Shown here: in pieces, positions 23,426 to 33,041 of the stretch | Numbering within the stretch: position 1 is the stretch's first letter | How the letters are laid out: each line of letters opens with the position of its first letter | Assembly (NCBI RefSeq): GCF_013155125.1 | Contig: NZ_CP053564.1 | Span: 4,967,501 to 5,031,500, forward strand | Length of the DNA stretch: 64,000 nt | Direction of reading: 5' to 3' | From: Pseudonocardia broussonetiae | Lineage (GTDB): Bacteria > Actinomycetota > Actinomycetes > Mycobacteriales > Pseudonocardiaceae | The notes under the pieces: model-generated | What the model was told of the DNA's origin: nothing | Database searches by the model: none | What the model saw: only the letters and a program-made list of their open reading frames with translations | Program-made: the position numbers and the translations under genes

Positions 23426-23495
23426 ACCTCGCACAGCGGGTGGTGACCTCGCACACGGTCGACGGTGTGCGAGGTGGGTGCTCGGTGTGCGAGGT
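23426..23495. repeat. Quadripartite palindromic element Q1 (downstream of nuclease-like pseudogene)
   Basis: Two forward motifs ACCTCGCACA(C) at 23426 and 23446 and two reverse motifs GTGTGCGAGGT at 23465 and 23485, i.e. about 20-base steps. The inner pair forms a perfect 11-bp stem with an 8-base loop. It lies between convergent ctaB and the pseudogene, touching the latter's stop codon, and could also work as a two-way terminator. Confidence 0.85.
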
Positions 23496-24390
23496 TAGCC
23501 GAGCCGGTGGGCGATGCGAGCCGCGACGGGCGCGAAGTCGGCGAGGTCCGCCCACGTCCAGCGCGTCATGTGCAGGCCCTCGTCGCGGATCGCGTCCTCG
23601 CGGCGCTTCTCGGCGAACAGCACCTCGCCGGCGTCCTGCCCGGGCCGCAGCAGGCGCCCGTACTTCACGCGCCCGTCGAACTCGCCGACGCAGCGCTGCC
23701 GCGGCCATCCGAAGTCGACCTCGCCCACCACCACGCCGCCGCCGTCACGACCGGCCACTGCAGCACCGGGGCGGGCAGGCCGGCGAGGTGCATCGCGACC
23801 CGGCTGCGGGACTCGCCGACGCTCATGCTGCCCGCGGCCGCGAAGCGCAGCGCCCGGTCGGCCGCCGGGGTGCCGGGCCGGCGGGTGCCCCGAGCGAGGG
23901 CGGCGTCGAGCTCCTCGCGGCTGACGAGGTGCCGGTGCAGCGCGGCGTCGGCGACGACGACGGCCTGCTCGAACGGTGCCGACCGGCCGACGTCGGCCAG
24001 GGTGCGCGCGACCGAGGTGACGCGGGCGCCGTCGACCTCCACCACCTCGTCGGGGTCGAGCTGCGCGGCGTGCACGTGCGCGAACCGGCCCACGCGGGCG
24101 CCCGAGCGGCGCGGACGCGTGCTGTGGACGCGGTCGAGCGGCAGGTCCCACACCGGCAGGCCGTGCAGCACCGCGGCCGTCACGTGGCTGAGCACGGCGT
24201 CCGGGGCGAGGTCGGGGGCCGCGGCCAGCGCCCGCGCGCGGTGCCACTGCTCGGGCCCGGTAGGCCGCTCGGCGAGGTAGTGCCCGCGGCGGAGGCGGAC
24301 CAGCTCGCCCGTGCGCAGGCGGCGCCGCAGCTCGTGCTCGCGCACCCCGGCGGCGAGCAGGTCGGGGCGGCGGTGGAACGCGGAGGTCAT
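23495..24390 (-). pseudogene. AbiEi-type winged-helix / nuclease-like protein, frameshifted
   Basis: Paralogue of the intact gene at 31994-32908. The N-terminal part (about 24390 down to 23749) reads as a winged-helix AbiEi-like domain (LLAAGVREHELRRRLRTGEL, VLSHVTAAVLHGLPVWDLPL) and a shared middle region (TLADVGRSAPFEQAVVVADA). At about 23746-23751 the frame breaks: after LQWPVV the homologous sequence continues in another frame as DGGGVVVGEVDFGWPRQR, then GEFDGRVKYGRLLRPGQDAG to the TAA at 23495. Restoring one missing base makes the length equal to the paralogue. It is either a true one-base deletion or a sequencing error; there is no homopolymer at the site. Confidence 0.8.
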
Positions 24391-24456
24391 CCGGGGAGGG
24401 TGCCGCGCGGGGCGGGCCGCCGTGGGCGTTCGGGCGAACTCGCCGCCGTCGCCGGC

Positions 24457-24526
24457 ACATCACACACCGGCTGAGCACCTCGCACACCGCCGACCCTGTG
24501 CGAGGTGCCCGCTCGGTGTGCGAGGT
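24457..24526. repeat. Quadripartite palindromic element Q2 (upstream of nuclease-like pseudogene)
   Basis: Forward motifs at 24457 (degenerate, ACATCACACAC) and 24477 (ACCTCGCACAC), reverse motifs at 24497 (TGTGCGAGGT) and 24516 (GTGTGCGAGGT). Same motif, order and about 20-base period as Q1. It lies 19 bases past the formaldehyde dehydrogenase stop. Confidence 0.85.
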
Positions 24527-24544
24527 GCCCGTCAGGCTGCGGCG

Positions 24545-25762
24545 TCAGGCCGCCGGGATGAGGCCGTTGGGGTTCAGCACGTACTTCTTCGCCGCCCCCC
24601 GGTCGAACTCCTGGTAGCCGCGCGGGGCGTCCTCCAGCGGCAGGACCGTGGCGCCGACCGCGTCGGCGATGTGGGCCTTGTCGTGCAGGATGCTCATCAT
24701 CAGGCCGCGGTTGTACTTCAGCACCGGGCACTGGCCGGTGTACAGCGAGTGGCTCTTCGCCCAGCCGAGCCCGAGGCGCACCTTGAGCGTGCCCTCCTTG
24801 GCGTCCTCGTCGGGCGCGCCCGGGTCGCCGGTGACGTAGAGGCCGGGGATGCCGAGGCTGCCGCCCGCGCGGGTCAGCGACATGATCGAGTTGAGCACCG
24901 CGGCGGGGGCCTCGCCGGCGCCGCTGCCGTGGCCGGTGGCCTCGAACCCGACGGCGTCGACGGCGCAGTCGACCTCGTTCGTCCCGAGGATCTGCGCGAT
25001 CTGGTCCTCCAGGGTGGCGTCCGCGGAGATGTCGACGGTCTCGCAGCCGAACGAGCGCGCCTGGGCGAGCCGGTCGGGGTTGAGGTCGCCGACGATGACC
25101 ACGGCCGCGCCCAGCAGGTTCGCCGAGTACGCGGCGGCCAGGCCGACCGGTCCGGCACCGGCGACGTAGACGGTCGAGCCGGTCGTCACCCCGGCGGTGT
25201 AGGCGCCGTGGTAGCCGGTCGGGAAGATGTCCGACAGCATCGTCAGGTCGAGGATCTTCTCCAGCGCCTGGTCGCGGTCGGGGAACTTCAGCAGGTTGAA
25301 GTCGGCGAAGGGCACCATGACGTACTCCGCCTGGCCGCCCTCCCAGCCGCCCATGTCGACGTAGCCGTACGCGGAGCCGGCGCGGCCGGGGTTCACGTTC
25401 TCGCAGATGCCCGTCTGGCCCTCGCGGCAGTTGCGGCAGCGGCCGCACGCGATGTTGAACGGCACCGAGCAGATGTCGCCGATGTCGACGAACTGGACGT
25501 CGCTGCCCTTCTCGACGACCTCGCCGGTGATCTCGTGGCCCAGTGTCTGCCCCGGGGGTGCGGTGGTCCGGCCGCGGACCATGTGCTGGTCGGAGCCGCA
25601 GATGTTCGTCGAGACCGTGCGCAGGATGACCCCGTGCTCGGCCTTGCGGGTCAGCCCCTTGGCCTGCGCGACCTCGGCCGGCACCTCGAGCTTCGGCGCG
25701 TCGTGGTCCTCCACCGCGACGACGCCCGGCTCCTTGTAGACGACGATCCTGTTGCCACCCAT
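24545..25762 (-). CDS. fdhA: Glutathione-independent formaldehyde dehydrogenase (zinc alcohol dehydrogenase family)
   Basis: 405 residues, a medium-chain dehydrogenase. NICGSDQHMVRGRT and GQTLGHEITGEVVEKG hold the catalytic Zn ligands; CGRCRNCREGQTGIC binds the structural Zn. The Rossmann motif is VYVAGAGPVGLAAA. PFADFNLLKFPDRDQA is characteristic of the Pseudomonas putida-type enzyme, which holds NAD tightly and oxidises formaldehyde to formate. AGGAGG precedes the ATG. Formate produced could feed the formate dehydrogenase encoded at 54.6-59.3 kb (inference). Confidence 0.93.
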   Translation of the reverse strand: MGGNRIVVYKEPGVVAVEDHDAPKLEVPAEVAQAKGLTRKAEHGVILRTVSTNICGSDQHMVRGRTTAPPGQTLGHEITGEVVEKGSDVQFVDIGDICSVPFNIACGRCRNCREGQTGICENVNPGRAGSAYGYVDMGGWEGGQAEYVMVPFADFNLLKFPDRDQALEKILDLTMLSDIFPTGYHGAYTAGVTTGSTVYVAGAGPVGLAAAYSANLLGAAVVIVGDLNPDRLAQARSFGCETVDISADATLEDQIAQILGTNEVDCAVDAVGFEATGHGSGAGEAPAAVLNSIMSLTRAGGSLGIPGLYVTGDPGAPDEDAKEGTLKVRLGLGWAKSHSLYTGQCPVLKYNRGLMMSILHDKAHIADAVGATVLPLEDAPRGYQEFDRGAAKKYVLNPNGLIPAA

Positions 25763-25823
25763 GCGTGCCTCCTGGTGTGTCGGGAGAGGTGGCTACCCAC
25801 GGCCGCCGCGGGCGGAAACGCCG

Positions 25824-27236
25824 TCAGCCGACGCGGCGCTCCTGGGTCTGCGGGTTGAGCACGTCGAAGTCGACGCCCTGCGCGCCCGCGATCAGCGGGT
25901 CGTCGACGGCGAGGACGTCGAGCCCCTCGCGGATGTCGGAGGAGAAGACGTGGCCGTCGTACCAGTAGGCCGACCACGACCCGCCCAGCACGAGCTCGGT
26001 GGCCGACACCGGTCCGCGGTCGAAGAAGCCGATCTCGACGGGGTGCGCGGAGTCGGTGAAGTCCCACACCGAGACCCCGCCCTGGTACCAGGCCTGCACC
26101 ATGACGTCGCGGCCCGGCACGGGGACGAGCGAGCCGTTGTGGGCGACGCAGTTCTCGGTCTCGCCCTGCAGCCGGGGGATCTTGTAGTAGCTGCGGAACT
26201 CCAGCTGCCCGTCGACGATGTCGTAGACGCCGTCGGCGCCGCGCACCGGGCCGACCGCCGCCGTGCAGGTGGCCGCGCTGCCGCCGCCGAGCTCGTCGGT
26301 GAAGACGACCTTCGTGCCCGCGTCGTTGAACGTGGCGCTGTGCCAGAAAGCGAAGTTCGCGTCGTCGCGCACCCGCTCGATCACGCGGGGGGCCTCGCGG
26401 TCGGTGATGTCCAGCAGCACGCCGTCGCCCATGCAGGCGCCCGCCGCGAGGTTGCGCGAGGGGTAGGCGGTGATGTCGTGGCAGCCGGTGGTGGTGTCGC
26501 TGCCCGGGCCGGGGTTGCCGCCGTCGGGGAACAGCACCGGCTCGGCGACGACGGCCGCGGCGGCCGGGTCGGCCAGCGGCACCTCGACGATCGAGATCCG
26601 GTCGTGCGGGGGCAGGCAGCCCGGCAGGTCGGGGGAGGGGGCGTAGGACGAGACGTAGAGGTAGACCGACTCGCCGGCCGTGTCGGGGACGAGCGTGTGG
26701 GTGTGCGAGCCGCAGGCCGTGGCCATCGACGTGACGTAGGCGGGGTTGGCCGGGTCGCGCACGTCGAAGACCTTGATGCCCTCCCAGTAGGGGAGCCCGG
26801 CCCGCTGCGGCACCGCGGAGCAGGTGTCGTCGCTCCAGCGGGAGTCGGTCGACAGGAACAGCAGCCCGTGCGAGACCGACACGTCGTTCTGCGAGCCGGG
26901 GCAGAGCACCTGGCTGACGACCCTCGGCGCCGCGGGCTCGCGGACGTCGTAGACGACGAACCCGTCGTAGTTGCCGACGTAGGCGTAACCGCCCGCGAAG
27001 GCCATGTCGGTGCCGTGGGACTGCTCGCCGTCGAACGGGGCCTGCTTCGGCAGGTGCGCGATCGGCGTGACGTTCGGGCTGGTCACGACTTCGCCGACGC
27101 CCGGCCCGAGCGGCCCGAGCGGCCCGGGCGGCCCGGGCGGCACGGGCGGCACCTCCGCCGACGCGGGCACCGGCGCCAGCAGCGCCAGCACCACCGCCGC
27201 CACGGCCACCCCGCACGCCCGCACCCGTCGTCCCAC
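25824..27236 (-). CDS. Secreted LVIVD-repeat protein
   Basis: 470 residues. Signal peptide at about 1-28 (VAVAAVVLALLAPVPASAE) with a likely cut after ASA, then a collagen-like Pro/Gly stretch (PPVPPGPPGPLGPLGPG). The rest consists of beta-propeller-type LVIVD repeats (YAYVGNYDGFVVYDVREPAA, GIKVFDVRDPANP, GVSVWDFTDSAHP). Several Cys pairs suggest disulfides outside the cell. Probably a cell-surface protein; no catalytic function can be assigned. GTG start with AGGGGGAG upstream. It diverges from the DUF305 gene. Confidence 0.85.
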   Translation of the reverse strand: MGRRVRACGVAVAAVVLALLAPVPASAEVPPVPPGPPGPLGPLGPGVGEVVTSPNVTPIAHLPKQAPFDGEQSHGTDMAFAGGYAYVGNYDGFVVYDVREPAAPRVVSQVLCPGSQNDVSVSHGLLFLSTDSRWSDDTCSAVPQRAGLPYWEGIKVFDVRDPANPAYVTSMATACGSHTHTLVPDTAGESVYLYVSSYAPSPDLPGCLPPHDRISIVEVPLADPAAAAVVAEPVLFPDGGNPGPGSDTTTGCHDITAYPSRNLAAGACMGDGVLLDITDREAPRVIERVRDDANFAFWHSATFNDAGTKVVFTDELGGGSAATCTAAVGPVRGADGVYDIVDGQLEFRSYYKIPRLQGETENCVAHNGSLVPVPGRDVMVQAWYQGGVSVWDFTDSAHPVEIGFFDRGPVSATELVLGGSWSAYWYDGHVFSSDIREGLDVLAVDDPLIAGAQGVDFDVLNPQTQERRVG

Positions 27237-27348
27237 CGTCGTGCTCCCCCTCGCCGTGCGCCGCTCGCCCCGGGACCACTGTGCCGGGCGGCCCCGACAT
27301 CCCGGTGCTCCCGCGCCCGGGTTCCACCCGACCGGTGCAGCCGCGCGC

Positions 27349-27354
27349 TAGCGT
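27349..27354 (+). promoter_or_regulatory. -10 box of a leaderless promoter (DUF305 gene)
   Basis: TAGCGT, six bases before the ATG at 27361. Confidence 0.5.
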
Positions 27355-27360
27355 CGGGCC

Positions 27361-27975
27361 ATGCGCCGCCTGGTCGTCCTCGCCGCACTGGTGGGCGCGC
27401 TCGCCGGGTGCGGGGCGGCCGAACCGGGCCCGCGGACCGTCGTGCCGGGCGCACCGGGGGAGCCGGCCCGCGTGATGGACGGCGCCGAGGCCGCGCAGCG
27501 GCGGGCCCCGGTGCCGGTGTCGCCCGCCGACGTGGAGTTCGTCGCCGCGATGGTCCCGCACCACGAGCAGGCCCTCGCCCTGGCGGCGCTGGCGCCCGGC
27601 CGCGCGGCCGACCCCGGCGTGCTTGCGATGGCCGAACGGATCGCGGCCGTGCAGGGGCCCGAGGTGGCGGTGCTGCGGGCGTGGCTGGACCGCCACGCGT
27701 CCGGCCACCCGGGCCACCCGGCGCACGCCGCCATGCCCGGGATGGTGGCGCCGGAGCGGCTCGCCGAGCTCGCCGCGGCGTCCGGGCCGGCGTTCGACCG
27801 GCTCTTCGTCGCGACGATGATCACCCACCACGAGGGCGCGCTGGCGATGGCCGCGCAGGTCCGGGCGTCGGGCACCGACCTGTTCGTCGCCGGGTTCGCC
27901 GACGACGTCGTGGCCACGCAGAGCGCCGACATCGACCGCCTGCGCGGCCTGCCCCCGGGTGGTCTACCGCAGTAG
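27361..27975 (+). CDS. DUF305 lipoprotein
   Basis: 204 residues. Lipobox LVGALAGC near residue 17 predicts lipidation and outer-surface location. The two DUF305 halves show the paired-His motifs MVPHHEQALALAAL and MITHHEGALAMAA, plus a His-rich loop (HASGHPGHPAHAAMPGM) that could bind metal (inference). The family is often found near copper genes, but none are seen here. Its 3' end overlaps the convergent S9 peptidase by 12 bases. Confidence 0.88.
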   Translation: MRRLVVLAALVGALAGCGAAEPGPRTVVPGAPGEPARVMDGAEAAQRRAPVPVSPADVEFVAAMVPHHEQALALAALAPGRAADPGVLAMAERIAAVQGPEVAVLRAWLDRHASGHPGHPAHAAMPGMVAPERLAELAAASGPAFDRLFVATMITHHEGALAMAAQVRASGTDLFVAGFADDVVATQSADIDRLRGLPPGGLPQ

Positions 27976-29955
27976 CTCCGGCGTCGCCCAGTCCTTCCCG
28001 AGCACGTGGTGGTCCAGGAATGCGGTGACGGTCTCGTACCAGACCGCGGCGTTCTGCGGCGTGAGGATCCAGTGGTTCTCGTCGGGGAACAGCAGGAAAC
28101 GGTGGGGCAGGTCGTCGGGGTCGCCGTCGTGGCGGCTGACGAGGTCCCACCACAGCCGCAGCGCCTCCCCGACGGGCACGCGGTAGTCGCGGTCGCCGTG
28201 GATCACCAGCATCGGCGTGGAGATCGCGTCGGCGAACCGGTGCGGGCTGTGGGCCTGCGCCATCTCCGGGGTCATCTCGCGTCGCCAGTACCAGGGCGCG
28301 TCGGTCGTGGGGCCGAACTGGTCGAGCGCCCACAGGCTCGCGTGGGTGACGATCGCGGCGAAGCGGTCGGTGTGGCCGGCGATCCAGTTCGCCATGTAGC
28401 CGCCGAAGCTCCCGCCCATCGCGGCGGTCCGCTCGGCGTCGACGTCGTCGCGGGCGACGGCGGCGTCGGTGAGCGCCATCAGGTCGGTGTACGGCGCTCC
28501 ACCCCACTCGCCCCAGCCGCGGGCGACGAAGTCGAGCCCGTAGCCGGTGGACAGCGCCGGGTCGGGCAGCAGCACGGCGTACCCGCGCGCGGCCATCAGC
28601 CACGGGTTCCAGCGCCACTGCCAGGCGTTCCAGCTGCCCAGGGGGCCGCCGTGGACCCACAGGACGAGCGGTGCCGGCCCCTCGGCGTCGGGCAGGACCA
28701 GCCATGCGCGCAGCGGCGTGCCGTCGGCGGCGGTGGCGTGCACCTCGGTGAGGGTGCCGGGCACCTCCGGCGCGGGCTCCGGCGCCGGGAGCAGGATCGG
28801 CTGCTGGTCCGGGGTGCGCGCGTCGAGGCGGACCGGCGCCGGCGGGGCGTCGACCGCGCTGCGCAGGGCGTAGACGTGGGCACCGTCCGGCGACACCCGC
28901 ACGTCGGTGTAGGCGCCGTGGTCCCCGGTGAGCCGGGTGACGGTGCCGTCCTCGACGCGGAAGACCGGCGCACGGCCCCCGTCGTCGGCGGTGACGACGA
29001 GCGCGGCGCCGTCCGGCGTCCACTGCGCGCCGCCGGCCCACCGGTCCCAGTCCGGCGCGACGTCGACGGGCTCACCGCCGGCCAGCGGCACCACCACCAG
29101 CCGCATGTCGGTGGGGGTGTCGGGGGTGGAGAAGCTCTCCCGGACGCAGGCGACGCGCGTGCCGTCCGGGCTGACGACGGGCGCGGAGAACTCGTGGTCG
29201 GGATCGTCGGCCAGCACGCGCCGCTCGCCGGTGGCCACCTCGATCACGACCAGCGTGGAGCGGGTGCCGCCGCCGCGCAGCGGCACCGCCCACGTGCTGA
29301 CGACGTGCCGCCCGTCCGGGGTGACGTCGTGCCCGCCCTCGACGAGCGCGGCCCCGGGCTCCGGGGTGAGGTCGGTCCACTCGCCGCCCGGCTCCGGCGC
29401 GGCGAGCAGGCGCGGGGCGTCCGGGCCGAGGTCGTGGTCCCAGAACCGGACGGGGTGCGCGGCGTGCAGCACGCCGCTGACCTTCTTCTCCCGGCGTGCC
29501 TTGCGGCGGGCCTCGTCGTCCTCGCCGGAGGTGGAGCCGGGCAGCGTCATCGACGTGACGACGACGGTGCCGGCCTCGCGCGCCACCACCACTCCGTCGA
29601 CGCCGCCGGGCCGGGTGCCGACGACCTCGGCCTCGCCCGACGCGGGCAGCCGCCACAGCGCGGCGGGGGAGTCCGGCGGCTGCTCGGCGGCGCCGGGGTC
29701 GGGGCGGGCGGAGGTGAACAGGACGTCGCCGCCGGGGGTGAAGACCGCGCCGCCCTCGCCCTTCGCGCTGCGCGTCAGGCGCCGCGCGGGCCGCTCCCCG
29801 GCCGGGTCGACCTCCCACAGCGCCGTGACGAACCGCGTGCGGTCGGGGCCGGGCGTCGCGGCCGACACGACGAGGCGAGTGCCGTCGGGGGACAGCGCGA
29901 GGCCCGACAGGCGCGGCAGGTCGAGGTAGTCCTGGACGTCGTCGAACCGGCTCAT
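27964..29955 (-). CDS. S9-family prolyl oligopeptidase-like peptidase
   Basis: 663 residues. The N-terminal part has WD40/TolB-like beta-propeller repeats (GLALSPDGTRLVVSA, HVVSTWAVPLRGGG, RVSPDGAHVYAL). The C-terminal alpha/beta hydrolase carries the nucleophile in AAMGGSFGGYMANW, the Asp in VIHGDRDYRVPV and the His in FPDENHWIL. No signal peptide, so cytosolic. Translationally coupled (ATGA) to the upstream quinone oxidoreductase. Confidence 0.93.
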   Translation of the reverse strand: MSRFDDVQDYLDLPRLSGLALSPDGTRLVVSAATPGPDRTRFVTALWEVDPAGERPARRLTRSAKGEGGAVFTPGGDVLFTSARPDPGAAEQPPDSPAALWRLPASGEAEVVGTRPGGVDGVVVAREAGTVVVTSMTLPGSTSGEDDEARRKARREKKVSGVLHAAHPVRFWDHDLGPDAPRLLAAPEPGGEWTDLTPEPGAALVEGGHDVTPDGRHVVSTWAVPLRGGGTRSTLVVIEVATGERRVLADDPDHEFSAPVVSPDGTRVACVRESFSTPDTPTDMRLVVVPLAGGEPVDVAPDWDRWAGGAQWTPDGAALVVTADDGGRAPVFRVEDGTVTRLTGDHGAYTDVRVSPDGAHVYALRSAVDAPPAPVRLDARTPDQQPILLPAPEPAPEVPGTLTEVHATAADGTPLRAWLVLPDAEGPAPLVLWVHGGPLGSWNAWQWRWNPWLMAARGYAVLLPDPALSTGYGLDFVARGWGEWGGAPYTDLMALTDAAVARDDVDAERTAAMGGSFGGYMANWIAGHTDRFAAIVTHASLWALDQFGPTTDAPWYWRREMTPEMAQAHSPHRFADAISTPMLVIHGDRDYRVPVGEALRLWWDLVSRHDGDPDDLPHRFLLFPDENHWILTPQNAAVWYETVTAFLDHHVLGKDWATPELLR

Positions 29956-30923
29956 GGCTGCAGCAGCACCTTCCCGGTCGTCCGGCGGGCGTGCAGGTCC
30001 TCGTGCGCGCTGCGCGCCTCCGCGAGGGGGTAGCGGTGGCCGATGCGGACGTCGAGGCTGCCGTCGGCGACGGCGTGGTAGACGGCGGCGGCCCGCGTCC
30101 GCAGCGCCTCGGGCGTGGCGACGTGGTGGAACAGCGTCGGGCGGGTGAGGTAGAGCGAGCCGCCGCGGTTGAGCCGCTGGGGGTCGACCGGCGGCACGGG
30201 GCCACTGGCTGCGCCGAAGAGCACGAGCATCCCGCGCACGCGCAGGGAGTCGAGGCTGGCGTCGAAGGTCGTCCGGCCGACGCTGTCGTAGGCGACGGCC
30301 ACGCCGGTGCCGCCGGTGAGCGCGCGGACCGCGCCGGCCAGGTCGTCCTCCGCCGTGTAGTCGATCACGTCGGCCGCTCCCGCCCCGCGGGCCAGCTCCG
30401 CCTTCTCCGGCGTCGAGACCGTCGCGATCACCCGGGCGCCGCGCGCGGTGGCGAGCTGGGTGAGCAGCAGCCCGACCCCGCCCGCCGCGGCGTGCACCAG
30501 CACGTCGTCGCCGGGCTGGACGGGGTAGGTGTCGTTCACCAGGAAGTGCGCCGTCATGCCCTGCAGGAGCGCGCCGACCGCCACGTCGTCGTCGACGCCG
30601 TCGGGCACCGGCACGGCCTTCGCCGCCTCCACCGCGACGAGCTCGGCGTAGCTGCCGAGCTGCTCGCACCACGCGACGCGGTCACCGACCGCGAACCCCT
30701 CCACGCCTTCGCCCAGGCTCCGCACCCGCCCGGCGCCCTCCATGCCGGGCACGTAGGGCAGCGCCATCGGGTAGACGCCCTCGCGCTGGTAGGTGTCGAT
30801 GAAGTTGACGCCCGCGGCCGCGACCTCGACGAGGAGCTCGCCGGGCCCGGCGACCGGGTCGTCGAGCTCGGTCGGGGTCAGGACGTCGGGCCCACCGGCC
30901 TCGGTGATCTGGATGGCGCGCAC
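29952..30923 (-). CDS. qor: NADPH:quinone oxidoreductase, zinc-independent MDR family
   Basis: 323 residues. GVNFIDTYQREGVYPMALPY is the quinone-reductase signature and VLVHAAAGGVGLLLTQLA the NADPH-binding motif. No zinc-binding Cys cluster is present. A qor gene beside ctaA is also seen in mycobacteria. GTG at 30923 slightly precedes the ctaA stop. Confidence 0.92.
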   Translation of the reverse strand: MRAIQITEAGGPDVLTPTELDDPVAGPGELLVEVAAAGVNFIDTYQREGVYPMALPYVPGMEGAGRVRSLGEGVEGFAVGDRVAWCEQLGSYAELVAVEAAKAVPVPDGVDDDVAVGALLQGMTAHFLVNDTYPVQPGDDVLVHAAAGGVGLLLTQLATARGARVIATVSTPEKAELARGAGAADVIDYTAEDDLAGAVRALTGGTGVAVAYDSVGRTTFDASLDSLRVRGMLVLFGAASGPVPPVDPQRLNRGGSLYLTRPTLFHHVATPEALRTRAAAVYHAVADGSLDVRIGHRYPLAEARSAHEDLHARRTTGKVLLQP

Positions 30924-30930
30924 GGCCCGA

Positions 30931-31881
30931 TCATGGCCCGGTGAGCACCGGCTCCGCATCCCGGGTGGCGACGGCGGCGGTGCTGCGCTCGACGGTGGCG
31001 AACCACAGGGCCGCCGCGGCCGCGGTGACCAGCCCGGCCCCGAGGACGTGCAGCACGACCAGCACCTCGGGCACGCCGATCGCGTACTGGATCCCGCCGA
31101 GCGCGCCCTGCGCGAGCACGACCGCGAGCAGCACGCGGAAGCGGCGCACGACCGCGGCGGGCGCCCCGACGGCGTGCAGCGCGAACCCGAGCCCGACGAG
31201 CAGGCCGAGGTAGCCGAACAGGAGCTCCGCGTGCAGCTGCGCCGTGGCCTCGACTCCCAGGCCCAGCCGCGGTGTCGCGGAGTCGCCCGCGTGCGGCCCG
31301 GCCGCCGTGACCAGCGTCCCGGCCACGAGCAGAGCCGCGAGCACGCCCGAGCTGACGGCGACCAGCCCGCGGATCGCCCCCGGCACGAGCGGCAGCGCGG
31401 GCCCGTCGCCCTCGCCCGCGGCCCGCACCAGCCCGGCGGAGAGCCACACGAGCACCGCCGACACCATGAAGTGCAGCGACACCCCGCCCCAGGCCAGATC
31501 GGTGAGCACGGTGATCCCGCCGATCACGGCCTGCGCGACGATCCCGGCCGGCATCACCGCGGCCAGCAGCGTCAGCCGGCGGCGCCGCGGGCGGGTGCCG
31601 AGCGCGGCGAGCAGCACCAGCGCGGCGATGACCACCAGCACGAACGTCAGCATCCGGTTGCCGAACTCGACCCACTGGTGCAGCGGGGCCACGTCGGCGT
31701 GCGAGACCGGCACCATGCTGCCGGGGAAGCACTCCGGCCAGCCCGGGCAGCCCAGCCCGGAGCCGGTGACCCGCACGGTCACCCCGGTCACCATGATCCC
31801 GACCTGCGCCACCAGGTTCGCCACGGCGAGGCGGCGCATCGTGGTGGGGGAGGTGACGGGGAGGCGGTCGAGAACGCTCAC
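30931..31881 (-). CDS. ctaA: Haem A synthase
   Basis: Oxidises the haem O methyl group to a formyl, giving haem A for cytochrome aa3 oxidase. 316 residues, about eight membrane helices. Haem-ligand histidines lie in HQWVEFGNRML, SLHFMVSAVLV, QLHAELLFGYLG and VLHVLGAGLV. The CPGWPECFPG pair of Cys between helices 1 and 2 is conserved. GTG at 31881 lies six bases after a TACGAT box. Confidence 0.94.
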   Translation of the reverse strand: MSVLDRLPVTSPTTMRRLAVANLVAQVGIMVTGVTVRVTGSGLGCPGWPECFPGSMVPVSHADVAPLHQWVEFGNRMLTFVLVVIAALVLLAALGTRPRRRRLTLLAAVMPAGIVAQAVIGGITVLTDLAWGGVSLHFMVSAVLVWLSAGLVRAAGEGDGPALPLVPGAIRGLVAVSSGVLAALLVAGTLVTAAGPHAGDSATPRLGLGVEATAQLHAELLFGYLGLLVGLGFALHAVGAPAAVVRRFRVLLAVVLAQGALGGIQYAIGVPEVLVVLHVLGAGLVTAAAAALWFATVERSTAAVATRDAEPVLTGP

Positions 31882-31887
31882 TCCCTG

Positions 31888-31893
31888 ATCGTA
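31888..31893 (-). promoter_or_regulatory. -10 box of a leaderless promoter (ctaA)
   Basis: TACGAT on the minus strand, six bases before the GTG at 31881. Confidence 0.55.
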
Positions 31894-31922
31894 GGCGCGG
31901 GGGCTCGTGCCCACCCGTCGCG

Positions 31923-31986
31923 GTCGCACAGGCCGTGGCGCGTCGCTCAGGCTGCACGACCTGCGACGGCCCGGAACCTGTGCGAC
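31923..31986. repeat. Quadripartite palindromic element Q3 (downstream of intact nuclease-like gene)
   Basis: Forward motifs GTCGCACAGG at 31923 and GTCGCTCAGG at 31942; reverse motifs GACCTGCGAC near 31958 and CCTGTGCGAC at 31977. Steps are about 16-20 bases. Bases 31951-31989 form an inverted repeat with 32975-33013 (35/39 matching, the inner 21 perfect). Confidence 0.85.
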
Positions 31987-31993
31987 GGCGGGC

Positions 31994-32908
31994 TCAGCGG
32001 CGGAACGTCCGCCTCAGGCGTGCGGCCGTCGCGTCGAACGGGTCGAGATCGGCCCAGCTCCAGCGCACCGCGCCCAGGCCCTCGCCGCGCATCGCGTCCT
32101 CGCGCAGCTTCTCCGCGTACACGACGTCGCCCGCCGTCCGCCCCGTGGGCACGAGCCGCCCGTACTTCTCCCGCCCGTCGAACTCACCGAAGGTGCGGAG
32201 CTCCGGCCACCCGAAGTCGGCGCGACCCAGCGCGACCCCCGTCGCCGACCGGACCACCCACTGCAACACCGGCTCGGGAAGGCCCGCACGCAGCATCGCG
32301 ACCCGGCTGCGCGACTCCCCGACGCTCTCGGCGCCCCACCGGGCGAACGCCAGCGCCCGGCGGGCGGCGGGCACGCCCGGGCGTCCGCGGGCCGCGTCGA
32401 GCGCCTCGTCGAGCTCGGCCCGCGTCACGAGCTTCCGCCACAGCGCCGCGTCGGCCACGACCACGGCCTGCTCGAACCCGAGGTGGCGTCCCACGTCGGC
32501 GAGCGTGCGGGGCAGCGACGTGACGGCGACACCGTCGACCGAGGTGGTCTCCCACGGCTCCAGCGGCGCGGCGTGGACGTGCAGGTCACCGGTGCGCCGG
32601 GCTCCCGAGCGGCGACCGCGGGTCAGCTGCACGCGGCGCAGGGGGTCGCCCCACACCGGGAGGCCGTGCAGCACGGCCGCGGACAGGTGGCTGACGACGG
32701 CGTCCGGCGACACCTGCCCGACCGCGGCCCGCACCTGCACGGCGTGGCGCGCCTCCGGGCGACTCGGCAGCACCCCCGGCCGGGCGTAGGCGCCGCGGCG
32801 GACGCTGCACAGCTCCCCGCGCCGGCGCCGGGCCCGGATCTCGGTGTCGTCGAACCCGTGGGCGAGGAGCTCGCGCCGGGTGAGCAGCCGCGCGTCGTCG
32901 ATGTCCAT
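31994..32908 (-). CDS. AbiEi-type winged-helix protein with PD-(D/E)XK nuclease-like C-terminus
   Basis: 304 residues. Residues about 5-45 form the winged-helix domain of AbiEi-like antitoxins (TRRELLAHGFDDTEIRARRR, LCSVRRGAYARPG), followed by DAVVSHLSAAVLHGLPVWGD. The C-terminal region (about 215-290) resembles DUF559/Vsr-type nucleases: an Asp in GRADFGWPEL, then GEFDGREKYGRL and VYAEKLREDAMRGEG, i.e. a D...ExDGxxK arrangement. No toxin gene (AbiEii-like) is adjacent, so it is not an ordinary type IV toxin-antitoxin pair. Both sides carry inverted quadripartite elements. Family membership is recognised; the function is not known. Confidence 0.75.
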   Translation of the reverse strand: MDIDDARLLTRRELLAHGFDDTEIRARRRRGELCSVRRGAYARPGVLPSRPEARHAVQVRAAVGQVSPDAVVSHLSAAVLHGLPVWGDPLRRVQLTRGRRSGARRTGDLHVHAAPLEPWETTSVDGVAVTSLPRTLADVGRHLGFEQAVVVADAALWRKLVTRAELDEALDAARGRPGVPAARRALAFARWGAESVGESRSRVAMLRAGLPEPVLQWVVRSATGVALGRADFGWPELRTFGEFDGREKYGRLVPTGRTAGDVVYAEKLREDAMRGEGLGAVRWSWADLDPFDATAARLRRTFRR

Positions 32909-32977
32909 GCGACGACGATGGGCGGAAGGAGGCGGCGCCGGAGGCGAACGGGGCAGGTTGTGGACAACCCGCGTGCC

Positions 32978-33041
32978 GTCGCACAGGTTCCGGGCGCTCG
33001 CAGGTGCTGCAGCCCCTGCGACGAGCCACCAGCCGTGCGAC
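32978..33041. repeat. Quadripartite palindromic element Q4 (upstream of intact nuclease-like gene)
   Basis: Forward motifs GTCGCACAGG at 32978 and CTCGCAGG at 32997; reverse motifs CCCCTGCGAC at 33013 and CCGTGCGAC at 33033. It is the inverted partner of Q3 and lies 13 bases beyond the stop of the ABC permease gene. Confidence 0.85.

Follow-up and report, generated by a model that had tools for sequence, protein, structure and literature searches.

Two genes in the window (the whole stretch of 64,000 nucleotides of Pseudonocardia broussonetiae DNA analysed here, from genome G000) each lie between a pair of repeated elements, and the question raised by this arrangement is whether gene and repeat belong together as one system and, if so, of what kind. 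The first-pass annotation had answered by analogy with REP elements and RAYT proteins, reading each unit as a selfish or domesticated cassette whose protein would bind or nick its own flanking element. Our analysis supports that putative reading.

The two genes and their flanking elements

Both genes specify an AbiEi-antitoxin-like protein fused to a domain like those of Vsr and EDxHD homing endonucleases, as indicated by Pfam, PADLOC and fold comparison (VIA-align rows restricted to chains ranked by Foldseek). The protein had initially been described as having a winged-helix N-terminus and a PD-(D/E)XK-like C-terminus; the winged helix stands, as part of the AbiEi-like portion, and so does the nuclease, although Vsr/EDxHD homing-endonuclease-like is the more precise description. 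The second copy is intact, but that at 23495-24390 is not the open gene it had been taken for, being frameshifted (Table 1); a Pseudonocardia oceani copy situated between CTCGCACA elements is an open frame. The nuclease domain has conserved acidic residues and a lysine (position K248 is K in 92/96 rows without stops in a wider set), its putative catalytic residues being strongly conserved, and the dN/dS of the protein is low. About half of the homologous loci (54/107) have TGTCCACA upstream of the gene, and a sequence which we take to be DnaA-box-like lies upstream of cassette 2.

Table 1. Positions of the cassette features within the window
Feature	Position	Strand	Description
Q1, left of cassette 1	23426..23495	none	ACCTCGCACAC in clean forward-forward-reverse-reverse order at ~20-bp steps: 23426 (+, one mismatch within the 11-mer), 23446 (+), 23465 (-), 23485 (-)
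AbiEi-nuclease gene, cassette 1	23495..24390	-	interrupted by a frameshift; open over 23665-24390, with the nuclease domain continuing in a different frame
Q2, right of cassette 1	24457..24526	none	three exact TCGCACA; a fourth copy of the motif differs at 2 positions
Q3, left of cassette 2	31923..31989	none	GTCGCACAGG at 31923 (+) and at 31977 (-), the copies between them being degenerate; two exact TCGCACA
Cassette 2 protein, intact, 304 aa	31994..32908	-	residues ~1-190, winged helix and AbiEi C-terminal domain; residues ~193-303, nuclease domain (Vsr/EDxHD-like)
TTGTCCACAA, presumably DnaA-box-like	32958..32967	-	about 50 bp upstream of the cassette 2 start codon
Q4, right of cassette 2	32975..33041	none	degenerate; one exact TCGCACA

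Such a protein could belong to a defence or conflict system, cutting incoming DNA while the host elements serve as decoys or self marks. The AbiEi-like part matches PADLOC AbiEi models, the nuclease fold resembles Vsr and some restriction enzymes, and the distribution of the cassettes is patchy (30/40 Pseudonocardia genomes). We nevertheless regard a defence role as improbable, since it does not readily account for a private element at each end of the gene, and since there is no toxin partner, as first noted, among the window neighbours ctaB, fdhA, ctaA and the ABC transporter genes, none of the genes adjoining either copy being an AbiEii nucleotidyltransferase toxin gene.

That elements bracket both genes is clear from comparison of left with right flanks, which are inverted repeats of 74 nt (78% complementary) at gene 1 and 67 nt (82%) at gene 2. 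Their local scores are 38 and 37 respectively, compared to a maximum of 18.5 among 2,865 random segment pairs taken ~1 kb apart in the window. Q1 and Q2 score only 8-10 against Q3 and Q4, and the element types of the two cassettes are thus different, in agreement with the motif difference reported originally. The first-pass annotation had in addition assigned four TCGCACA motifs in forward-forward-reverse-reverse order to every element, which holds for Q1 only, because Q2 has three exact copies and Q3 and Q4 are degenerate. Local motif counts were dropped as evidence, as clusters of a 7-mer (two forward and two reverse copies within 75-bp stretches) are not clearly in excess of chance, numbering 21 in this GC-rich window and 77 in five Markov controls; significance comes instead from the agreement between the two flanks of each gene and from further loci and genomes. 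The Q1 class is also present at other sites in the genome.

Homologous loci and the element motif

Across Actinomycetota, flanks match at 84/107 homologue loci, compared to 8/500 when flanks are mispaired and 0/26 for the flanks of ctaB; the remaining 23 loci score under 20. (The set comprises 107 of 109 loci, L078 and L079 being duplicates of L042 and L043; L105 was left out as its flanks are too short, the tree contains 104 of the 107 loci, and for ctaB 30 of 40 matches were fetched, four of which were too short.) The expected recurrence of the elements at homologues is therefore confirmed, although the four-motif layout is not general: a typical Pseudonocardia element is about 66-70 bp long with four motif copies in forward-forward-reverse-reverse order about 20 bp apart, whereas several Nocardioides flanks are simple palindromes. 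The distant DUF559-like paralogues at L009-L011 have no convincing flanking motif. Pairs of ctaB and fdhA without a cassette exist, as had been anticipated, and cassettes occur in opposite orientations at the same site.

Motifs differ except among close relatives. The five paralogues of G000 have different motifs, each with its own type on both sides, and the motif common to the two flanks of a cassette is often absent from other cassettes at the same site; both flanks can change together. The motif type tracks the protein, and the covariation with the winged helix proposed in the first-pass annotation is borne out; it is matched by that of the AbiEi C-terminal domain, and these tests are not free of phylogeny because close relatives share sequence by descent.

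Being palindromic and often at gene 3' ends, the elements might be transcription terminators or structural hairpins that happen to flank a lone gene. This reading is disfavoured, and we give it hardly any credence: it does not account for a motif shared by one flank pair and often lacking in others at the same site, and in 39 elements from G022 and G034 the spacer arms are no more complementary within an element than between elements (permutations reaching the observed value: 1558/5000 in G022, 4991/5000 in G034). Being inverted repeats, the motifs might nonetheless pair with one another. As the arms between them are not complementary beyond chance, a putative four-site double-strand target is favoured over a hairpin.

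Dispersed copies of the elements

A genome-wide search with five element families found 20-63 matches in genomes with the matching protein, the families searched occupying about 12 to 40 genomic places. Four of the five are absent or rare in genomes without it, the CTCGCACA type being broader. The dispersed elements are intergenic, palindromic and often at gene 3' ends, and their numbers differ strongly between related genomes. It had been reasoned that elements common after unrelated genes with no link to the protein would speak against a cassette; they do occur after unrelated genes, but they are linked to presence of the protein, with exceptions. Thus G030 has dispersed elements of type TTCACACA yet the flanks of its related cassette are TTCGCACA, one cassette of G011 has a nearby motif yet the genome gives 0 matches, and the 7 CTCGCACA-type matches of G037 are not assigned to any one of its cassettes, as in several genomes with 1-10 matches.

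These are also properties of ordinary REP elements, moved by RAYT or another transposase, among which the gene would merely happen to lie. The genome with most TTCACACA matches, G022, indeed holds one gene for a RAYT-type transposase (Y1_Tnp, PF01797). However, none was found in 35/40 Pseudonocardia genomes, among them G000, G004, G030 and G034 (an E. coli control was positive), and RAYT was rejected as the mover; nor would mere proximity give each G000 paralogue its own type on both sides. This explanation too is disfavoured, and we consider it very improbable.

At 12/16 sites examined in G000 the same place is occupied in P. oceani (30/47 own and 30/39 P. oceani matches were fetched), and most of the dispersed elements examined are therefore old; recent mobility in G000 was rejected on the same grounds. 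One of three candidate empty sites was clear, that of L182, which is empty in G011 and G015 and filled by other DNA in G034. The remaining two aligned poorly or contained other DNA.

Between G000 and P. oceani the element core is less changed than the spacer (7/309 and 52/457 differences at 11 sites), a comparison that is biased because the elements were found by their core. Such conservation, together with the low dN/dS, would be expected if the protein were an AbiEi-type autorepressor with the flanking elements as operators, the dispersed ones as a regulon or nucleoid-organising sites, and a nuclease fold that only binds. According to PMC7319586, the sites bound by these proteins in their own promoters are a pair of 23-bp inverted repeats for AbiEi and four tandem ones for Rv2827c. 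A regulatory role is nonetheless unlikely in our view, as elements lie 3' as well as 5' of the gene, the putative catalytic residues are retained, element numbers vary so strongly among related genomes, and just 2 of the 28 dispersed elements with both neighbours assigned (from the 39 in G022 and G034) lie between divergent genes, a poor placement for operators.

A putative repeat-nuclease system compared with known systems

We consider it probable that gene and element together constitute a repeat-nuclease system that resembles REP/RAYT but is assembled from unrelated components. One part would be the fusion of an AbiEi-type putative DNA-binding protein with the Vsr/EDxHD-like nuclease domain, distinct in each paralogue within a genome; the other would be that protein's own element, which flanks the gene left and right and is dispersed as well. 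We also favour, with somewhat more reserve, the fuller proposition that the AbiEi-derived reader and its Vsr-type nuclease propagate their own four-site element, re-specify rapidly and rewrite both flanks together, as a widespread actinobacterial class convergent with REP/RAYT.

Judging from the periodicity and from the behaviour of the AbiEi family, the winged helices of up to four protomers may read sites aligned along a single face of the duplex, and the nuclease domain, given its fold and conserved residues, could nick or cut the element. Repair might then copy elements between sites, which would spread them slowly and keep the flanks of a cassette alike, as their coupling suggests. Protein specificity would drift and the elements follow; the covariation is observed, and such drift as its cause would yield different motifs in paralogues and even in same-site relatives. 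Recombination between flanks may invert or delete the gene, consistent with the opposite orientations at one site.

The combination, found in soil bacteria, appears to be a mobile or domesticated repeat system of a kind without earlier description; a literature search with thin coverage of subscription papers returned, among the matches listed, no AbiEi- or DUF559-type protein tied to dispersed repeats. If correct, a gene family annotated as antitoxin-like or hypothetical would be drivers of genome-specific repeat families, the origin of many actinobacterial intergenic palindromes would be explained, and proteins now catalogued as solitary AbiEi antitoxins or as hypothetical would acquire a function. 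Since each cassette presents a DNA reader with its apparent target on both sides, many such pairs could be collected by surveying genomes, and they would amount to a natural code for specificity change in winged helices.

Homing genes as a rule lie within, and thereby protect, the sequence that they target. The putative catalytic fold and residues resemble those of the EDxHD homing endonuclease I-Bth0305I and of Vsr, but here, if the element is the target, copies lie on both sides and many uninterrupted ones at other genomic sites. As in insertion sequences and MITEs, there are inverted repeats at the ends and short relatives without coding capacity; in contrast to them, the motifs of the five G000 paralogues differ and no near-identical gene copies were found among 90 within-genome pairs in 18 genomes (the closest being 70% identical). 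At the one empty dispersed site the flanks are too diverged to place ends exactly, and no target-site duplication could be defined. Residues 1-190 share the fold (winged helix and C-terminal domain) of AbiEi antitoxins of type IV toxin-antitoxin systems (6y8q; Rv2827c, 1zel), from which the protein differs in its extra nuclease domain, in the lack of an adjoining AbiEii gene in the window, and in having repeats on both sides and dispersed.

The closest likeness in organisation is to REP/RAYT, in which, according to PMC3116915 and PMC8049555, single-copy and mutually distinct genes, inherited mostly vertically, are each accompanied by a separate class of intergenic palindromes, located next to the gene and dispersed. 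Short, dispersed, intergenic palindromic repeats with a copy beside the gene are found here as well. In contrast to RAYT, the protein has AbiEi and Vsr-like nuclease domains in place of a Y1/HUH domain match, elements of the usual Pseudonocardia type combine four sites spaced 20 bp apart with a lack of arm complementarity outside the motifs, and the system is found in Actinomycetota. It would thus offer a second, independent case in which to ask why hosts keep populations of repeats with a dedicated nuclease.

Cassettes of the window and of other Actinomycetota

The closest named relatives of the window, which lies in a genome of 7.29 Mb (G000, C1:4967501-5031500), are Pseudonocardia. As the first-pass annotation proposed, it contains two AbiEi/nuclease-like genes of one family, the nuclease domain being Vsr/EDxHD-like, but only in part as described: the cassette 2 gene is intact (304-aa product), and that of cassette 1 is frameshifted, unlike the P. 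oceani copy between CTCGCACA elements, which is an open reading frame. Elements do lie on both sides of each gene: local alignment of one flank with the other scores 38 and 37, the top score among 2,865 random segment pairs in the window being 18.5, and the elements differ between the cassettes (cross-cassette score 8–10). The proposed order of two forward and two reverse motifs holds for the element left of cassette 1 (Q1; motif starts spaced 20, 19 and 20 bp), but one motif is degraded in its right-hand counterpart Q2, and the cassette 2 elements (Q3 and Q4) are mostly degraded. Motif counts by themselves showed no clear excess over chance in the window.

Features of the cassette family and associated repeats
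Feature	Coordinates	Site or element
Cassette 1	window 23495-24390	ctaB (heme o synthase)/fdhA interval; same gene family as cassette 2
Cassette 2	window 31994-32908	ctaA/ABC-2 transporter gene interval; same gene family as cassette 1
TGTCCACA	window 32958-32967	upstream of cassette 2 gene
L001		GTCGCACAGG, both sides
L002		GCTCCCGCGCG arrays, both sides
L003		CCGCACCGCCG, both sides
L004		GGCTCGCACACAGG, both sides
L005		ACCTCGCACAC, both sides
L008	G000:C1:129915-130493	DUF559-like paralogue amid repeats; CGACGATCACCGAG and GATCAAGGGC on either side
Unit array	G010:C23:34186-34303	CTCGCACA units, 22-bp steps
Unit array	G018:C40:5633-5684	CTCGCACA units, 22-bp steps

We sampled 36 named loci (Pseudonocardia, Nocardioides, Jiangella, Arthrobacter, Microcella, Olsenella and others) together with loci of 40 Pseudonocardia genomes, 30 of which carry a homologue at E ≤ 1e-30. 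Upstream and downstream flanks scored ≥ 20 at 84 of 107 loci, compared to 8 of 500 mispaired flanks and none of 26 ctaB control loci; a 9-mer was found in both orientations on either side at 56/109 loci versus 20/1,090 swapped flanks. Elements thus recur at homologues, with diverse motifs (e.g. GGCGAATTCACC at L047, CGCGTACCAC at L048, TCGGCCGGCCGA at L049, CGGCCACCT at L056 with steps of ~20–21 bp, CGACTGCAGTCG at L139). Among the Pseudonocardia loci inspected, elements typically have four motifs, and several Nocardioides flanks are simpler palindromes. Long inverted termini are visible by eye outside the motif elements of L045 and L046, cassettes from Jiangella and a relative. In addition, TGTCCACA, part of TTGTCCACA, which we take to resemble a DnaA box, lies 36–112 bp upstream of the start in 54/107 loci and downstream in one; this could reflect a promoter element or a connection with replication.

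G000 contains five close gene copies (L001–L005), each with a private element type on either side. It also has L007, a distant AbiEi-like relative that shares 30% identity over 241 residues and is flanked on both sides by a very different palindrome. The DUF559-like paralogue L008 and its repeats are perhaps a further related system. The closest within-genome protein pair is only 70% identical (90 pairs, 18 genomes), so the gene is not multiplying as near-copies.

Joint change of element and protein

Elements on either side are private to each protein and change together with it, as had been predicted for the motif. At least two common enriched 8-mers were found in 13/17 protein pairs with a normalised score > 0.75 and in 17/3,222 with a score < 0.3. 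Close pairs mainly occupy one and the same chromosomal site, so their agreement partly reflects common descent; same-site pairs with unlike elements are more telling. L048 and L051, at the same site, have 93% identical outer flanks and 69% identical proteins; element scores are 46 and 42 when the two sides of one cassette are compared and 13 between cassettes, with same-side scores of 18 and 72, the latter inflated by common host DNA. Among 66 same-site pairs in which both cassettes are coupled, the median score was 30 within and 16 across, and the cross score was at background (≤ 13) in 27.

Restricting comparison to pairs with nuclease identity ≥ 0.60, winged helix and nuclease identities were 0.63 and 0.74 for pairs with alike elements (n = 40), and 0.42 and 0.63 for those with unlike elements (n = 273; with one use per locus within group, 16 vs 25 pairs, p = 0.0004). 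The AbiEi C-terminal domain covaries with the elements equally strongly, so the comparison does not single out the winged helix as the DNA-reading surface.

Dispersed elements and the dynamics of sites

Genome-wide searches covered five element families; the counts are of pattern matches, up to two per element. Pairs of TTCACACA numbered 63 in G022 (~40 places by our clustering), 57 in G034 and 27 in G030, with none in the 37 other Pseudonocardia genomes or the reversed control. For CTCGCACA pairs, 125 matches came from 17 of the 30 genomes that encode a close protein (G000 had 33, at ~26 places, and G004 had 31; each of the other 15 had 1–10), with one match in the 10 genomes without it and 6 for the control over all 40. 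Similarly, GGTGAATTCGCC, the L047 type, had 20 matches in its own genome (~12 places) and 2 in eight others; the L007 type (≤ 2 mismatches) had 38 in its own genome, six adjoining the gene, with one in G007 and none in 38 genomes; and the L056 type had 23 in its own (~14 places) and none in 10 others. Dispersed copies are therefore tied to protein presence in most tests. The exceptions are G011, which has a relative with a slightly differing motif yet no TTCACACA match; G030, whose cassette is flanked by TTCGCACA while its dispersed copies are TTCACACA; and G037 and several low-count genomes, whose CTCGCACA-type copies were matched to no cassette. Arrays of CTCGCACA units step differently from the 20-bp elements (Table). 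Many G034 elements (L155–L174) are embedded in a dispersed repeat of greater length, their flanks being related on either side, as if captured by another mobile repeat.

With 12–37 bp permitted, 39 of 47 motif pairs in G000 start exactly 20 bp apart, and two classes can be told apart by forward-to-reverse distance: one of 37, represented by L005, and one of 41, represented by L004. In G022, conservation falls beyond ~68 bp in elements picked for intact motifs. Within-element complementarity of the spacers was not above chance, a result that favours four double-strand sites along one face of the helix over selection for a hairpin. Binding by known relatives fits this layout: AbiEi attaches to two 23-bp inverted repeats and Rv2827c to four (PMC7319586), and I-Bth0305I acts as a dimer whose target spans nearly 60 bp (PMC3943268). 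Both neighbouring genes could be assigned by a simple GC3 rule for 28 of 39 dispersed elements picked in G022 and G034, being co-directional at 15, convergent at 11 and divergent at 2.

We located ctaB in 40 genomes and analysed 30 loci. Six carry a cassette, that of G000 being opposite in orientation to the other five; fdhA lay outside the analysed stretch in 16; and one (L252, in G022) has ~1.1 kb of other DNA between the genes with no detectable cassette. The empty sites envisaged in the first-pass annotation exist at the remaining seven, where ctaB and fdhA are 10–291 bp apart with no such element by eye. L092/L113 and L097/L100 match on one outer side, likewise in opposite orientation. 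The shared sites S1 and S3 each hold more than one protein-tree lineage. S3, whose neighbour was recognised by eye as a glutaredoxin-like gene, carries cassettes of several lineages with differing motifs (L004, L083, L092, L104, L107, L109, L110, L122; also L194), marking it as a hot spot of insertion or replacement.

One dispersed G022 element lies opposite a 71-bp, element-sized gap in G011 and G015. However, 12 of 16 G000 element sites examined are common to P. oceani, which argues against high mobility. At 11 common sites, differences numbered 7/309 in cores, 52/457 in spacers and 142/1,087 in flanks, the core count being biased to intact cores since elements were found through them.

Relation to known systems

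We infer that the protein binds and cuts its element, and that repair then copies elements. If the element is the target, the gene is not a standard homing gene, as elements persist at the occupied site and elsewhere; nor is it part of a type IV toxin-antitoxin pair, as no toxin gene adjoins in the window. We found no description of such a repeat-nuclease system in the open-access literature searched. Y1_Tnp, the profile of the RAYT transposase domain, is absent from 35/40 Pseudonocardia genomes, including G000 (E. coli control positive); G022 has one such gene. RAYT enzymes are described in PMC3116915 and PMC8049555 as single-copy and vertically inherited, each with one private repeat class. 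The AbiEi-nuclease protein resembles them in being a single-copy, vertically inherited enzyme with its own repeat class, but matches no Y1 domain; the system is thus not a member of REP/RAYT, though it works like it.
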